A stretch of 64,000 nucleotides of DNA, taken from the NCBI RefSeq assembly GCF_014696315.1, contig NZ_JACJPX010000001.1, forward strand, positions 186,001 to 250,000, given 5' to 3'. Both the position numbers and the translations under genes were made by a program. The notes under the pieces were generated by a model that made no database searches, was not told where the DNA came from, and was given only the letters and a program-made list of their open reading frames with translations. Source of the DNA: Calothrix membranacea FACHB-236. Its GTDB lineage: Bacteria; Cyanobacteriota; Cyanobacteriia; Cyanobacteriales; Nostocaceae. Below, in pieces: positions 2,677 to 54,068 of the stretch. Every line of letters begins with the position of its first letter. The stretch's first letter is position 1.

Positions 2677-3136
2677 GGCCGCCAAGTGAATTGTTAAAAA
2701 ACAAATAATTATTATCTTGGCAAAAATTGTGACATTTTTTTGTATCTTTTGGCAAATTTGTTGGAAAAATATAACATCAGTGATTCTTATACACTGTAAA
2801 TCCTAGAAAAAACTAGCAAAATCTTGAGCTTGAATCGTGCTTATTTCAAAGCTTTTGCCAGGAAAAAACTGTTTTTGCCAATGTTTTAGTGTAGGCAAAT
2901 ATCATTACAATGAGTATCAATTGATACTCATTTAAGCGGGTGCGCTTTATTCTATCTCTTGCAGCAAAGCAGTGGGTAGGAGGAGAGAAGCGATCGCTCA
3001 TCATCAAACTTTCTGTTTTTTGTTCCCTTTGGCAAACAACAAATCCTAATTCTCAAAATAAACTCTTGACACTTTGTATTACACATACTACATTAAGAAT
3101 ACAAGGCGATGTTCCAAAAGGAGTAAGCTTTCAACC
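2677..3136. promoter_or_regulatory. Gap upstream of RNA array with 24-bp perfect palindrome
   Basis: No convincing gene lies in this 460-bp gap. AATGAGTATCAA and TTGATACTCATT join without a spacer at 2909-2932, a perfect 24-bp palindrome about 205 bp upstream of the first tRNA-like RNA. Its size and symmetry suit a dimeric regulator, and the TGA...TCA edges recall Fur-family boxes loosely. It could control the array or the divergent membrane protein gene. The regulator is not identifiable from sequence. Confidence 0.35.
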
Positions 3137-3267
3137 GTAGCGGATAGCTCAAATACCAGAGTGCCCACCTTGCCCCCAAGGGCCGACATATCGAGGGTTA
3201 CCGCAAATAACAGAAAACATCCTTGATGCCAATTCTGGAGGTGCAGGTGAAAATCCTGCTCCGCTAC
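3137..3267 (+). ncRNA. tRNA-like Y RNA candidate Y1
   Basis: The ends pair as an 8-bp acceptor stem, GTAGCGGA (3137-3144) with TCCGCTAC (3260-3267). This equals a 7-bp stem plus a G-1:C73 pair. A D-type arm follows (GCTC/GAGT, 3147-3162) but lacks the GG of a normal D loop. The T stem GCAGG/CCTGC (3243-3259) is perfect, with loop TGAAAAT in place of TTCRAAT. Between the D and T arms lies the shared module at about 3167-3203: hairpin GCCC-CCAA-GGGC, CGA, then GAGGGTTACCG. It is followed by a 40-nt variable stretch. No anticodon arm can be drawn. This is the most diverged of six copies. It cannot be a working tRNA; a Ro-binding Y RNA is the best reading. Confidence 0.72.
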
Positions 3268-3307
3268 ACCTAAACCTAATTTTGAATTTTGAATTTTGAA
3301 TTGTTAT

Positions 3308-3429
3308 GTGGCAGGTAGCTCAGTGGTAGAGCGCTAAACATCCTTTTTCACCCCTTGCCTGCAAAGGCCGACGAATGAGGGTTATCGATTGGGTTCGAGA
3401 GGTCGCAGGTTCGATTCCTGCCCCACCAC
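3308..3429 (+). ncRNA. tRNA-like Y RNA candidate Y2 (Gly/Pro-like)
   Basis: The 5' half is nearly identical to Y5: GTGGCAGG, T8 A9, D arm GCTC-AGTGGTA-GAGC. The T arm GCAGG-TTCGATT-CCTGC (3405-3421) is canonical. The acceptor 3' strand CCCACCA gives two adjacent mismatches (C:A, A:C) with TGGCAGG. The shared module is at 3351-3387. If 3336-3385 is removed, CT and CGA join into an anticodon stem CTCGA/TCGAG with loop TTGGGT, like tRNA-Pro(UGG) but one base short. It therefore looks like a duplicate with a Gly-type 5' half and a Pro-like anticodon arm that has decayed as a tRNA while keeping the module. The spacer before it (TTTTGAATTTTGAATTGTTA type) recurs before Y4 and Y5. Confidence 0.75.
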
Positions 3430-3489
3430 CCAAAATTAGTACTGAGTTTTAAATTTTTTACTCAGAACTCAGCACTCACAGCCTTTCAT

Positions 3490-3653
3490 GTGGCGGATGG
3501 CGAAATTGGTAAACGCACTTGACACAAAAACCTTAATTTATCACCTTGCCCGAAAGGGCCGAAGAGTTGAGGGTTATCGTAATCTAGCAGCCGCAAGGTT
3601 TTGCAGGTACCCTTCGGGAAGCCGCTTTGCGTCTACAAATCCTGCTCCGCCAC
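3490..3653 (+). ncRNA. tRNA-like Y RNA candidate Y3 (Leu-like, class II)
   Basis: Acceptor GTGGCGGA (3490-3497) pairs perfectly over 8 bp with TCCGCCAC (3646-3653). The D arm GCG-AAATTGGTAAA-CGC (3500-3516) is of tRNA-Leu type. The anticodon stem would be CTTGA/TCTAG (3518-3522, 3583-3587; one T:T mismatch). A class II variable arm AGCC-GCAA-GGTT lies at 3589-3600. The shared module at 3543-3579 contains a GCCC-GAAA-GGGC hairpin (GNRA loop) and GAGGGTTATCG. The T stem GCAGG/CCTGC is intact, but its loop carries a 26-bp insertion (3611-3636) flanked by TAC. Removing it restores a 7-nt loop TACAAAT. The acceptor and module are preserved despite the broken T loop. Confidence 0.75.
3611..3636. 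repeat. Small repeat inserted in the T loop of Y3
   Basis: A 26-bp unit containing CCTTCGGGAAGCCGCTTTGC, a common type of Nostocales small repeat, sits between the halves of the Y3 T loop. TAC stands on both sides (3608-3610 and 3634-3636), consistent with a 3-bp duplication. Excision of one TAC plus the repeat gives a normal 7-nt loop. Confidence 0.65.
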
Positions 3654-3686
3654 ACCTAAACTTAATTTTGAATTTTGAATTGTTAC

Positions 3687-3827
3687 GTGGGTGTGTAGCT
3701 CAACTGGTAGAGCAATGAACGGGTTAATCACCCATAGTCCTTGGTTCACAACCTTGCCTGAAAAGGCCGACGAGTCGAGGGTTATCGTCAATTCATCGGT
3801 TGTAGGTTCAAATCCTACCTCACCCGC
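3687..3827 (+). ncRNA. tRNA-like Y RNA candidate Y4
   Basis: Acceptor GGGTGTG (3689-3695) pairs with CTCACCC (3819-3825) with one T:T mismatch, and two further pairs outside extend it. T8 A9, D arm GCTC-AACTGGTA-GAGC, T arm GTAGG-TTCAAAT-CCTAC and variable loop CGGTT are all canonical. Position 26 is A. The anticodon stem ATGAA (3712 on) pairs perfectly over 5 bp with TTCAT (3791 on). The anticodon loop is replaced by about 73 nt: a GGGT-TAATC-ACCC hairpin, then the shared module (3750-3787) with AACCTT pairing to AGGGTT around a GCCT-GAAA-AGGC hairpin. G follows the acceptor, as in tRNA-Asp, but no anticodon with U33 can be assembled. It is the clearest example of a tRNA body carrying the module in place of its anticodon. 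Confidence 0.78.
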
Positions 3828-3848
3828 CAAAATCTAATTTTGAATTTT

Positions 3849-3969
3849 GCGGAAAGTTGCGTGCGGGGGTTCCCCCCGTTGAGGAGGCAGTGCGTTGGGC
3901 GGGTTCCCCGACTTGTAGCAACTGCCGTCAAACTTTCCTTGGCGTAGCCTCTCCCCTTGGGAGAAGACG
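3849..3969. repeat. Palindromic repeat insertion between Y4 and Y5
   Basis: About 120 bp of GC-rich hairpins interrupt the otherwise regular spacer. GGAAAGTT near 3851 and AAACTTTCC near 3930-3938 form terminal inverted repeats around GGGGGTTCCCCCC-type hairpins. A second motif, CCTCTCCCCTTGGGAGAAGA, follows and recurs in variant form near 30195 and 51994. This is a non-autonomous dispersed repeat with no coding content. Confidence 0.6.
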
Positions 3970-3985
3970 AATTTTGAATTGTTAT

Positions 3986-4110
3986 GTGGCAGGTAGCTCA
4001 GTGGTAGAGCGCCTAAAACATCCTTGTTCACCCCTTGCCTGCAAAGGCCGAAGAATGAGGGTTATCGCCTTCCAAGCGGGATGTCGCAGGTTCGAGTCCT
4101 GCCCTGCCAC
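3986..4110 (+). ncRNA. tRNA-like Y RNA candidate Y5 (interrupted tRNA-Gly(UCC) body)
   Basis: Acceptor TGGCAGG (3987-3993) pairs perfectly with CCTGCCA (4103-4109), with an extra G-1:C73 pair. T8 A9, D arm GCTC-AGTGGTA-GAGC (with G18G19) and T arm GCAGG-TTCGAGT-CCTGC are all canonical. The shared module lies at 4031-4067. Removing 4014-4065 (52 nt) joins CC to CGC and gives a perfect anticodon stem CCCGC/GCGGG, loop CTTCCAA (U33, anticodon UCC at 4071-4073) and variable loop ATGTC: a textbook tRNA-Gly apart from the G-1:C73 end. Unspliced, ACATCC (4018-4023) can pair with GGATGT (4079-4084) and replace the anticodon stem. Either a tRNA gene gained a Ro module or the module is removed. A T-rich tract follows at 4111-4121. 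Confidence 0.8.
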
Positions 4111-4118
4111 CTTTTATT

Positions 4119-4147
4119 TTTGCCCGTAAGGGCCGGGAGTTAAAGCT
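4119..4147 (+). promoter_or_regulatory. rsr leader hairpin resembling the Y-RNA module, with RBS
   Basis: Directly before the rsr ATG lies TTGCCC-GTAA-GGGCCGGGAG: a 4-bp GCCC/GGGC hairpin with a GNRA loop (4122-4133), followed by CGGGAG. The first half matches the module of the six tRNA-like RNAs (TTGCC-GNRA-GGCCG), while the GAGGGTTATCG half is absent. GGGAG (4135-4139), 8 nt before ATG 4148, is the likely ribosome binding site and abuts the stem. Rsr binding here could block translation. That is inference from similarity only. Confidence 0.5.
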
Positions 4148-5752
4148 ATGAATTATAATTTCTTTACTAAAAAGAAAACAAATACGCCACAAACTCAGCC
4201 TATCCCCGGACGGGAAGCAGAGATGGTTAAGGGACGTTCCGGTGGGTATATGTTTGAGGCTGGTATTTGGAAAATGCTGCGCCGTTGTCTGTTGATTGGG
4301 ACAGCAAAAAGCACTTACTATGCTGGCAAACAGGAACTAACAGAAGATTTTGTAAATGTTGTTAAGCAAGCTGTAGCAGAAAATCCTGGGCGGGTTGCAG
4401 AAGAAATTCTCTATGCTAGCGATGGCCGCGCCATCAATAACAGTGCGCCTATCTTGGCTTTAGTGTTGCTATCGATGGGTGAAACACCAGAAGCGAAGAA
4501 AGCATTTGGTGACATCTTTGGGCAAGTTGTCCGTACTGGTAGCCACTTCTATGAATGGCTGAACTACACGAAATCGCTGCGGGGATTTGGTAAGGTGGTG
4601 CGCGAAGCTGGTAAAACTTGGCTATCGCGTGAAGATGTCAAAGGTTTGGCTTATCAACTGTTGAAATATCAACAGCGTCAAGGCTTCTCTCACCGAGATG
4701 CATTGCGGTTGTTCCATGTTAAACCACCTACAGAAACTCACCGCGAATTATTTGAGTGGGTAGTGAAAGGTTGGGAAGATTTGCCAGCAGATATACCCTC
4801 AGAAGCCTTAGCGCAGATTTGGTGGTATGAGTGGTTAAAACGCAACCCCAGCGAAACCCACACTGCGATCGCACAAGGTCGTCTCACCCACGAAATGGCT
4901 GCACCTGTGGGTAAAATGGATAAACAAGCTTGGCAGCTACTTTTCCAAGAAATGCCCATCGGTGCAATGCTGCGTAACCTTGGTTCTTTGACAGAACTAG
5001 GCGTGCTACGAGCTGATGAAAGTGCTAATCTTCAGCGAGTAGAAGCAGTTCTCAATCATCAAGAACATCTGCGTAAAGGTCGTATACATCCGATTGATGT
5101 TTTGAAAGCTCTCAAAACCTATCAATCTGGTGGTAGATTAGGGCGCAGCCAGAAAACTTGGGAACCAGTTCCGCGAATTGTAGACATCTTAGAAAAAGCA
5201 CTGGAATTATCTTTTGAGGTCGTGCAACCCACAGGCAAAGTTTTCATGCACGCTGTGGATGTTTCTGGCTCTATGTCTTGGGGTGTGGTGGATTCAGTGG
5301 GTTTAAGCTGCTGTGAAATCGCGACTACAATGGCGTTGGTAACAGCAAAAGCTGAGAAAAACTACATGATTCGTGGCTTTGCAACCGAATTTAGAGAACT
5401 AGGTATCACCGCTAAAGATACTTTTAGTTCTGCACTTCGCAAAGCTAGCAATCAAAACTTTGGTGGTACAGATGCTTCTGTGGCTTACGACTGGATGATT
5501 AAGAACAAGTTCAAAGCGGATGTAGTTTGCTTTTGGACTGACAATGAGTCATGGGCTGGTCATAAACATCCTAGTCAAGCCTTGGCGCAGTACCGCGAGA
5601 AGGTGAACCCTAACGCTAAGGCAGTGTATGTCACCCTTGCACCTTACAACATTACCTTAGTAGATCCAAAAGATCCTCTTTCGTGGGATTTAGCAGGGTT
5701 CGACCCTGGAACACCTCGCATCATCCAGATGCTAGCTACAGGTGAACTTTAA
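4148..5752 (+). CDS. rsr: Ro60 orthologue Rsr (TROVE + vWA domains)
   Basis: Ring-shaped RNA-binding protein of the Ro60 family. In animals and in Deinococcus it binds Y RNAs on the outer surface and 3' ends of misfolded or decaying RNAs in the central hole, assisting exonucleases. Residues about 25-340 form the TROVE/HEAT domain with family motifs MLRRCLLIGT, STYYAG, KSLRGFGK and HRDALRLFHVKP. Residues about 362-530 are the von Willebrand A domain with MIDAS residues D371-S373-S375 (AVDVSGSMSWG), followed by GGTDAS and WTDNESW. At 534 residues it is full length. The start is fixed by GGGAG 8 nt upstream. Five tRNA-like RNA genes precede it and one follows, all co-oriented, as expected for a Y RNA partner locus. 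No RtcB ligase or archease gene is in the window. Confidence 0.95.
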   Translation: MNYNFFTKKKTNTPQTQPIPGREAEMVKGRSGGYMFEAGIWKMLRRCLLIGTAKSTYYAGKQELTEDFVNVVKQAVAENPGRVAEEILYASDGRAINNSAPILALVLLSMGETPEAKKAFGDIFGQVVRTGSHFYEWLNYTKSLRGFGKVVREAGKTWLSREDVKGLAYQLLKYQQRQGFSHRDALRLFHVKPPTETHRELFEWVVKGWEDLPADIPSEALAQIWWYEWLKRNPSETHTAIAQGRLTHEMAAPVGKMDKQAWQLLFQEMPIGAMLRNLGSLTELGVLRADESANLQRVEAVLNHQEHLRKGRIHPIDVLKALKTYQSGGRLGRSQKTWEPVPRIVDILEKALELSFEVVQPTGKVFMHAVDVSGSMSWGVVDSVGLSCCEIATTMALVTAKAEKNYMIRGFATEFRELGITAKDTFSSALRKASNQNFGGTDASVAYDWMIKNKFKADVVCFWTDNESWAGHKHPSQALAQYREKVNPNAKAVYVTLAPYNITLVDPKDPLSWDLAGFDPGTPRIIQMLATGEL

Positions 5753-5827
5753 AAAGGCTCAAGGATAAAGTATAAAGGGTGAAATCCAAAAATTTTCATC
5801 CTTTATTCTTCAACCTTCATACTTCAT

Positions 5828-5934
5828 GGCGGGTTATCCTGGTTCGCAACTTGCCTTTAAAGGCCGAAGAACTTAGGGTTATCGGTTGTATCTCCACCAT
5901 TCTGGGGATAGCGGGTTCAATTCCCGCACCCGCC
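5828..5934 (+). ncRNA. tRNA-like Y RNA candidate Y6 (downstream of rsr, no D arm)
   Basis: Acceptor GGCGGGT (5828-5834) pairs perfectly with ACCCGCC (5928-5934). T arm GCGGG-TTCAATT-CCCGC (5911-5927) is canonical. The D arm is absent: TATCC (5835-5839) can instead pair with GGATA (5906-5910) next to the T arm. An alternative hairpin, ATCTCC with GGGGAT, competes with it. The shared module is at 5848-5884, with a GCCT-TTAA-AGGC hairpin, CGAAGA and AGGGTTATCG. TTTTT follows directly at 5935-5939 and probably ends transcription. It lies 75 bp after the rsr stop. It is the most compact version, acceptor plus T arm plus module. Confidence 0.75.
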
Positions 5935-5951
5935 TTTTTGATTTTTTATTA

Positions 5952-27779: not shown

Positions 27780-27880
27780 TCCGTGTCTTTCCGGATAACC
27801 TCTATTTCCCTAGTAGAGAGTAATGGTAGATGCACCCTGGTTAAGCCCTGGAGATACTCTCTGGGGCATTTTTTATTTTT
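27780..27880 (+). ncRNA. Candidate small RNA with intrinsic terminator
   Basis: On the plus strand, antisense to the lgt-cobM transcript, a hairpin CTCTA/TAGAG (27800-27818) is followed by GCCCTGGAG-ATACT-CTCTGGGGC (27845-27867; 9 bp with two G:T pairs) and then ATTTTTTATTTTT. This is a classical rho-independent terminator. No plus-strand coding sequence precedes it, since cobM and lgt are both on the minus strand, so it must end a short non-coding transcript. The 5' end is a guess. I do not recognise the family; it lacks the core motif I remember for Yfr1. Confidence 0.5.
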
Positions 27881-53432: not shown

Positions 53433-54068
53433 ATGACTCTCTCAATTGCTCCAGAAATAATTTCTGTTACCGCTTTACCCAATCAACAATTACCTCATGT
53501 TACAGAATCAGACATGATTCAAGCTGTACGTACTTTGTTAATTGGCTTAGGAGAAAATCCTGATAGAGAGGGTTTAAAAGATACTCCAAAAAGAGTAGTT
53601 AAAGCCCTTCAATTTCTCACCAAAGGATATGATGAATCTTTGGATGAATTATTAAATGGGGCAGTATTTACAGAAGATGCCAATGAAATGGTGTTAGTTA
53701 GAGACATCGATATTTTTAGTTCCTGCGAACACCATATATTACCGATAATTGGTCGCGCTCATGTGGCGTATATTCCTAATGGCAAGGTGATAGGATTATC
53801 GAAAATTGCCCGAATTTGTGAAATGTATGCACGCCGTTTGCAAGTTCAGGAACGCCTGACTATACAAATTGCCGATGCACTGCAAGGTTTACTGAAACCT
53901 CGAGGCGTAGCAGTAGTATTAGAAGCAACGCATATGTGTATGGTAATGCGCGGTGTTCAAAAACCTGGTTCTTGGACTGTTACCAGTGCAATGCGGGGAG
54001 TGTTTGCAGAAGATGTCCGCACTCGTCAGGAGTTTATGAATTTGATTCGGCACAATGCTAGCTTTTAG
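53433..54068 (+). CDS. folE: GTP cyclohydrolase I
   Basis: Converts GTP to 7,8-dihydroneopterin triphosphate for folate and pterin synthesis. The type IA zinc site is intact ([10 protein letters not shown] and [10 protein letters not shown]). [37 protein letters not shown] and TSAMRGVF are further family blocks. It is therefore not the zinc-independent FolE2 type. Its place directly behind a COG0523 GTPase suggests that the GTPase delivers zinc to it; I infer it is a stress paralogue. The longest frame starts at a TTG (53394); ATG 53433 ([10 protein letters not shown]) is preferred, 211 residues. Confidence 0.94.

Follow-up and report, generated by a model that had tools for sequence, protein, structure and literature searches.

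The paired 5′ and 3′ ends of animal and bacterial Y RNAs make the stem that is bound by Ro60 (PMC4726728, PMC8394870). The Ro60 site requires a conserved short helix containing a bulged C (PMC4726728, PMC4030889), the bulged C being the main contact in the stem (PMC4030889). The bacterial Y RNA YrlA superposes on tRNA by means of a circular permutation (PMC11472068), and its tRNA-like domain is reported to be modified by tRNA enzymes and to meet PNPase (PMC8394870). Y RNAs are known in one topology, with the Ro60 site at the RNA ends and contact with the effector at the loop end. Here we analyze a 64-kb stretch of Calothrix membranacea FACHB-236 (NZ_JACJPX010000001.1, positions 186,001-250,000, forward strand), hereafter the window, which contains rsr, the gene for an ortholog of the RNA-guarding protein Ro60, and six tRNA-shaped elements (E1 to E6) around it. 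In these elements the tRNA order is acceptor-D-...-T-acceptor and the ends are open; a loop closes the Ro60 stem instead. The cyanobacterial element looks like a Y RNA with its topology turned inside out relative to YrlA, and we consider the locus to be probably an operon of circularly permuted Y RNAs together with their Ro60 partner.

Three covariance models were used. R1 describes the module that carries the Ro60 site, R3 describes whole elements in their native order, and R2 describes un-permuted elements, having been built from 30 elements that were cut in the loop and whose halves were rejoined in the opposite order. R3 was trained on 30 elements, to which the window contributes E5 alone. 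In window coordinates, the parts of the locus are as follows.

3066..3094, + strand: promoter-like TTGACA-N17-TACATT at the head of the array, matching at 10 of 12 positions
3137..3270, + strand: E1, with an 8-bp acceptor stem, a D arm and a T arm with an unusual loop (R3 31.6 bits, E 3e-6)
3158-3207, + strand: module of E1, short (R1 24.1 bits)
3308..3432, + strand: E2, with two acceptor mismatches (R3 115.7 bits; Rfam tRNA 38.9 bits at 3309-3429)
3335-3391, + strand: module of E2, from the module search
3490..3656, + strand: E3, with a T-loop insert and a Leu CAA-like 5′ half (R3 57.7 bits)
3525-3583, + strand: module of E3, from the module search
3688..3829, + strand: E4, with an encoded GCCA end (R3 75.2 bits; Rfam tRNA 51.2 bits at 3689-3826)
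3733-3791, + strand: module of E4, from the module search
3986..4113, + strand: E5, nearest to rsr (R3 139.5 bits, as a training member)
4015-4071, + strand: module of E5, from the module search
4120..4139, + strand: rsr leader hairpin UU-GCCC-GUAA-GGGC-C-GGGAG, with its stem at 4122-4133 and Shine-Dalgarno-like GGGAG at 4135-4139
4148..5752, + strand: rsr, Ro60 ortholog of 534 aa with TROVE and vWA domains (Pfam)
5827..5938, + strand: E6, 3′ of rsr, without a D arm, its 3′ end leading into TTTTT (R3 47.5 bits)
5831-5888, + strand: module of E6, from the module search

By R3, the 64-kb window has exactly six elements, all on the + strand and co-oriented with rsr, at E-values of 3e-6 to 5e-34, and no further element at E<=1. 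The original prediction, made from the letters of this DNA, had proposed six co-oriented tRNA-shaped RNAs that share a Ro module and flank a TROVE protein gene. The covariance models support this array, and Pfam identifies both vWA_Ro60 (5.7e-39) and TROVE (1e-18) in the rsr product, as required of a Ro60 protein. Profile searches match Rsr to 1yvp, 2nvo and 9nen, and the histidine of the animal Ro60 Y-RNA site (H187 of 1yvp, its position counted by hand) is kept in Rsr, invariant in 10 of 10. What the prediction overlooked is the circular permutation, the full length of the module, the promoter-like site and the leader hairpin. Across the 8.8-Mb genome of the organism, R1 at E<=1 returns the six window modules and one weak match (C4, E 0.028), which lies within a 468-aa histidine-kinase-like reading frame and was taken as chance. 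A weak module match is also seen at window 53768-53805 (17.0 bits, E 0.0085).

The bodies of the elements vary. Seven perfect acceptor pairs are present in E1, E3, E5 and E6, and mismatches occur in E2 and E4, just as had been predicted, and the one element expected to have no D arm is E6. The promoter/terminator scan called no terminator at the TTTTT of E6. E4 has additional sequence ahead of its module, and the T loop of E3 (window 3595-3656) holds ~30 extra nucleotides, like an insert in another locus, L239. Body identity is 46-70% for all pairs other than E2 and E5, which are 88% identical; to speak of six different bodies was an overstatement because these two are near-copies. The 5′ half of E3 agrees with the host tRNA-Leu CAA at 0.85, with a Leu tRNA also as runner-up, a value below the highest found between a host tRNA and another isotype (0.92; median 0.75). 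Leu for E3 is the one proposed isotype label that has support.

Elements so close to tRNA could conceivably be interrupted tRNA genes, with the module as an intron and the spliced bodies as working tRNAs. Two of the six, E2 and E4, pass the cut-off of the Rfam tRNA model with a large insert, and ARAGORN in intron mode (default threshold, 4.1 kb) calls exactly E2, E4 and E5; when run without introns it calls zero tRNAs among the six. The remaining three elements, however, go uncalled even in intron mode, E6 has no D arm, the acceptor of E2 is broken, and no intron family reaches its cut-off within the window, while the genome has 46 other tRNA matches above cut-off. We therefore reject this explanation, which has hardly any probability left.

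The module extends over ~58 nt from an upstream CCTT box to ATCG, longer than the ~37 nt originally proposed, and reads CCUU-RUUC-N-CCUUGCC-loop-GGCCGAAG-AAUUG-AGGGUUAUCG. The CCTT box is present in 81 of 96 modules. Between TTGCC and GGCCGA, the window modules have a gap of 6 nt and not the 4 nt given earlier. The predicted Ro60 site is CUUGCC-loop-GGC-C-GAAG, capped at its far end by the loop, and the bulged C of the GGC-C-GA/UUGCC helix is kept in at least 90% of modules. Unconstrained RNAalifold folding of 80 modules (alignment A2, which leaves out the 15 of 96 modules that lack a CCTT box and one that was badly cut) pairs CCUU with AGGG and also pairs the hairpin stem. For the module alone, the paired cells and the covariation score exceed those of all 500 shuffles. 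Across 30 whole elements, pairing holds in 96.3% of the pair cells and double changes occur in 19 of 28 pairs; neither value is reached by any of 500 shuffles. The way the elements were chosen partly favoured their acceptor, T and D pairs, but not the Ro stem or the CCUU/AGGG helix. The elements (A3, A4) were 30 of 46 candidates, drawn from 86 by a score >=20, a CCTT box, a length of 115-133 and non-redundancy. The short helix with a bulged C expected of a Y RNA is present and its stem covaries.

An acceptor stem, a D arm and a T arm flank 86 of 96 modules at a score >=15, a level attained by 3.5% of 288 random positions. E2, whose acceptor is broken, stands outside these 86. In 59 of the 86 there is an eighth acceptor pair, a Watson-Crick -1:73 pair. 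An NCCA end is encoded in 35, after seven pairs in 14 and after eight in 21. For comparison, of 45 distinct tRNA genes of the host, 3 have CCA after position 73 (counted by reading); eight of the 45 distinct strings end in CCA, three of them after N73.

Conservation closely follows rsr. The original prediction tied the module to this gene, and a covariance search over 148 genomes of the order agrees: full rsr occurs in 31 genomes and the module in 31/31, a result that is partly true by construction because R1 training used loci of most of these genomes. Modules in contexts free of rsr, which would have spoken against the prediction, amount to matches in 4 of the 117 genomes without full rsr. 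Two are decayed loci, L119 (G084), in which an interrupted element is visible, and L290 (G128), which by its neighbouring frames is syntenic with the window site; both are read as fossils of a lost locus. The other two, L291 and L293, look like chance because they lie on the opposite strand of a small conserved reading frame. Weak R1 matches were set aside as chance, those in G017 and G119 being on the opposite strand of a conserved 71-aa frame and that in G337 within a long reading frame. A survey of 292 genomes across the phylum, in which strict filters lost weak matches, found near-type rsr (>=70% identity) in 23 and modules in 23/23, of which 14 were untrained; a module match occurs in 3 of the 269 other genomes and in 0 of 7 genomes with a distant rsr.

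Among 80 named loci, the best 80 of 177 relatives, spanning Nostoc carneum to Prochloron, modules adjoin rsr in 79, the gene position expected of Y RNAs. These total 330 modules, 330/330 on the rsr strand, with 274 upstream of rsr and 56 downstream, and the nearest upstream module starts 111-120 nt 5′ of the rsr match in 52 of 78 loci. In L215, a metagenome-assembled genome of Rhizonema sp. PD38, rsr has no module in the stretch examined and keeps the leader hairpin at the Shine-Dalgarno sequence. Under a stricter pattern the largest array has 10 modules; the named copy of the same locus has 11. Elements are found in Nostoc, Calothrix, Chlorogloeopsis, Prochloron and the laboratory strain Picosynechococcus PCC 7002, whose plasmid pAQ7 carries three in tandem 5′ of rsr (108.7, 61.6 and 50.4 bits). 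On pAQ7 (NC_010474.1) these three occupy roughly 163298-163425, 163167-163277 and 163019-163145 of the complement strand; the pAQ7 gene table has no RNA at the array, but it lists no RNA genes whatsoever. A third arrangement occurs in L289 (G255:C3:859300-863500), where an orphan module (G255:C3:861362-861420, - strand, E 2.3e-12) lies far from the rsr of its genome and the order is a D-arm-like stretch, a hairpin, a T arm, the Ro module and another hairpin.

The swapped order is seen by comparison with YrlA (RF02553; PDB 6CU1). Both RNAs join a Ro60-site stem to a tRNA-like domain, both adjoin rsr, and their T, acceptor and D arms are spatially alike once the ends are swapped. Over YrlA-type RNAs, some from distant rsr loci and some from other cyanobacteria, R2 scores 32-55 bits versus 12-27 bits for R3 (R2/R3: L140, 54.7/23.1 and 32.0/21.2; L142, 51.1/24.2; L137, 47.7/21.7; L230, 36.4/14.9; L237, 54.1/27.0 and 38.3/12.0; L238, 48.8/20.9; L240, 47.6/23.3). 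Ordinary tRNAs score with R3 instead, up to 54.7 bits (L231), and the R2 maximum over 30 host tRNA loci is 27.2 bits. R2 beats the Rfam YrlA model on L140 (54.7 vs 26.4), L142 and L137 and falls below it on L230 (36.4 vs 47.6). With RF02553 at E<=0.1, matches occur in 100 of 292 genomes and in 9 of 14 control genomes, and the survey was not used alone as evidence of YrlA because the controls match too. Some matches below the cut-off, at 23-38 bits, straddle neighbouring modules of one array (by coordinates, and by alignment for two), as permutation predicts for adjacent units. The genomes of L237, L238 and L240 (G003, G033 and G001) carry YrlA-topology RNAs at R2 38-54 bits, those of L237 and L238 with CCUAA..ACUUG flanks, and a search for rsr in these three genomes gave nothing. 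L137 and L140 have their distant rsr in real tRNA arrays (8 and 13 tRNAs by ARAGORN) with YrlA adjoining, in two tandem copies in L140.

Viral contigs supply both orders. The exact module pattern has 0 matches there, and a search with the Rsr protein gave five relatives. L284 encodes an Rsr that is 63% identical and has three tandem permuted elements (77.6, 74.0 and 68.0 bits). L285 encodes an Rsr that is 47% identical and has a small RNA with pairing ends, whose strands GAGC-U-GAAUG..GAGGUUAUCG and CAACUUGCUC are the L284 strands in opposite order. Each of six native-order Y RNAs has a higher mean similarity to 30 randomly drawn cyanobacterial modules when these are un-permuted than in the other order; the mean was reached by 0, 0, 0, 1, 0 and 3 of 200 shuffles for the six RNAs and the best score by 1, 3, 12, 8, 0 and 6 of 200. 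For L285, L286, L140 and L137, resemblance above shuffles is also seen with the three modules of L284. A score of the half-module hidden Markov model (HMM) H5 on L285 (0/500 shuffles) was discarded, as the match fell just outside the Ro strand.

In a tree of 30 Rsr proteins (19 with permuted RNAs, 7 with native-order RNAs and four rows without an RNA label; L230 is left out, as no Rsr protein was obtained), the permuted state requires a single change, and native-order L285 is the sister. The permuted clade has support of 97/99 and is seen in 98% of bootstraps.

Other viral loci carry candidate related RNAs. L286 has a candidate small native-order Y RNA (GAGCCGAUG..GGUUAUC..AAUUGCUC) at 2910-2977, directly 5′ of rsr, and a YrlA-type RNA as well. 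Phage Myrna has a candidate native-order Y RNA (L283 2228-2357, R2 26.0 bits) directly 5′ of its Ro60 relative, and such a relative is encoded in 353 phage records, mainly of Mycobacterium and Streptomyces.

A number of results weigh against the reading as an operon of circularly permuted Y RNAs. For the module alone, the pair types are no higher than in shuffles (reached by 334/500), and the double-change pairs are reached by 31/500. Flanks swapped between modules still score >=15 in 53% of 272 cases, by which the bodies are alike in kind. The R2 scores on YrlA come largely from the T-acceptor-D core, the L142 match spans that core alone (model positions 23-104), and R2 obtains 29.8 bits across tandem real tRNAs of L140. 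The cut-off of RF02553 (69 bits) is passed in 0 of the 292 cyanobacterial genomes. With the profile HMM of one half-module, the best matches are those of two YrlA RNAs out of seven, equalled by 1 and by 6 of 300 shuffles, and with the other half no YrlA flank falls under 22/300; on small native RNAs the half-module HMMs are weak, at 5 and 9 of 500 shuffles with one half. The L284 modules are not above shuffles against L287 (82/200) or Myrna (29/200). Finally, the Rsr tree has several long outer branches, and the native-order label of L285 depends on reading and folding its sequence.

A rival explanation is convergence, in which ordinary tRNA genes adjoining rsr would each have acquired a hairpin with a Ro60 site within the anticodon loop and YrlA was never permuted. 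Outside E2 and E5 the bodies do differ, the 5′ half of E3 is closest to a host tRNA-Leu, and distant rsr genes are located within arrays of real tRNAs; the core-dominated R2 scores and the weak half-module matches to YrlA flanks point the same way. Separate gains, however, agree poorly with module halves that jointly match native-order Y RNAs above shuffles when un-permuted, with a native-order Y RNA bearing the GAGGUUAUCG and ACUUGCUC strands next to the sister Rsr, and with one change on the Rsr tree. Convergence is unlikely, though it is the strongest of the competing explanations. Drawing mostly on the tRNA core and the comparison of Ro strands, we take the elements to be homologues of YrlA that differ from it by a circular permutation. 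We do not file them as YrlA because their tRNA order is normal with open ends, where YrlA has a closed, permuted tRNA-like domain on a paired-end stem; they also occur as several tandem units and lie below the RF02553 cut-off in the 292 genomes. They are better viewed as a permuted sister of YrlA which should work likewise.

The region immediately 5′ of rsr contains a look-alike of the Ro60 site. A hairpin of the form UUGCC-NNNN-GGC-Y-GGGAG abuts the Shine-Dalgarno sequence and looks like the capped half of the site. In 97 distinct leaders with an automatically chosen hairpin, GCC/GGC is found in 75 and TT ahead of the stem in 87, and further leaders show the hairpin on visual inspection. Because it resembles the Ro60 site and persists in the module-free Rhizonema locus, the hairpin suggests that Rsr may repress its own translation through the leader. 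At the other end of the array, TTGAC-N17-19-TANNNT occurs within ~300 nt or less 5′ of the first module in 68 of the 72 named loci with enough upstream sequence, a raw count with no null; the promoter scan overall gave 5 sites versus 4.0 expected in shuffles, and thus no excess.

A promoter-like site ahead of the array, a constant strand shared with rsr and a Ro60-site mimic at the Shine-Dalgarno sequence could all be expected if the elements merely regulated rsr as an mRNA leader or trailer and were never excised as separate RNAs. Yet each unit keeps its acceptor stem and T arm, and NCCA in 35 of 86, which would be superfluous in a mere leader, and E6 along with 56 of 330 modules lies 3′ of rsr. 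A purely cis-acting role is improbable, more so than convergence, and separate Y RNAs remain the preferred interpretation.

Two other features of the window lie apart from these subjects. Parts of the gap between E4 and E5 (3848-3980) align at 76-93% with short segments from several cyanobacterial plasmids and are probably dispersed repeats. Nitrogen stress-induced RNA 1 (NsiR1) is found at 27824-27875 (Rfam, 51.9 bits).

The elements can also be set beside other RNAs. Vertebrate Y RNAs have CGAAG and CUUG strands at the Ro60 site. The cyanobacterial elements share with these and with small native-order Y RNAs such as that of L285 a CGAAG side with the bulged C and a CUUG side, but the strand order is reversed, the end is closed by a loop and a tRNA body is attached; the paired 5′ and 3′ ends form an acceptor stem and not the Ro60 stem. 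With tRNA (RF00005) they have in common the acceptor stem, the D and T arms and, in 35 of 86, the NCCA end. They differ in the ~58-nt module that replaces the anticodon loop, so that there is no intact anticodon arm and decoding is impossible in such a form, and in the -1:73 pair. A tmRNA has a tag frame and pseudoknots. Like tmRNA, the elements have tRNA-shaped ends and a non-tRNA insert in the anticodon region; unlike it, they are too short for a tag frame and pseudoknots, the insert is a Ro60 site and rsr adjoins.

A working model can be proposed. A single promoter (3066-3094) would be read through five tRNA-shaped RNAs, rsr and the sixth RNA, and RNase P and tRNA 3′ enzymes would release the units from the long transcript. 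Each unit consists of a normal-order tRNA body with an open acceptor end, often extended by the eighth pair. From the anticodon end juts a capped stem with the predicted Ro60 site CUU-GCC-loop-GGC-C-GAAG and its bulged C, then a second helix, CCUU/AGGG, followed by UUAUCG. Relative to YrlA, the free ends of the Ro60 stem are joined by a small loop and the closed acceptor loop is open. We infer that Rsr grips each unit through the capped stem, leaving the tRNA body as the effector face, as in YrlA; a genome with several bodies may thereby reach more than one partner. When free, Rsr may attach to the look-alike hairpin at the Shine-Dalgarno sequence and repress rsr.

Circular permutation usually arises by way of tandem copies. 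The presumed route would begin with tandem duplication of a YrlA next to rsr, perhaps in a mobile tRNA array, after which the processing sites would have shifted. More tentatively, and with somewhat less than even confidence, we suggest that a whole noncoding RNA was naturally permuted through tandem duplication in a phage or tRNA array, which freed the acceptor end. Ro60 would then carry varied tRNA mimics whose open, often CCA-bearing ends recruit tRNA machinery (RNase P, the CCA enzyme and perhaps nucleases or synthetases), with a different partner for every body and the leader hairpin serving as a built-in feedback copy of the Rsr-binding site.

Among the entries listed in searches of an open-access library there was no description of a cyanobacterial Y RNA or of a Y RNA with its ends swapped in this way; the core papers of the field lie outside that library and an earlier mention is possible. 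The cyanobacterial family is widespread and has the opposite topology to the one known. Of the Y RNA, the tRNA face and both Ro60-site strands have been kept, and the position of the ends has been free to change. Here the circular permutation of an RNA can be mapped onto a protein phylogeny, and its native-order sister comes from a viral contig. Because the tRNA-type ends are free and several versions occur per genome, the role of the tRNA-like domain is now testable. If the proposed model is true, tRNA machinery would handle Ro60 through the open, often CCA-bearing ends of its Y RNAs.

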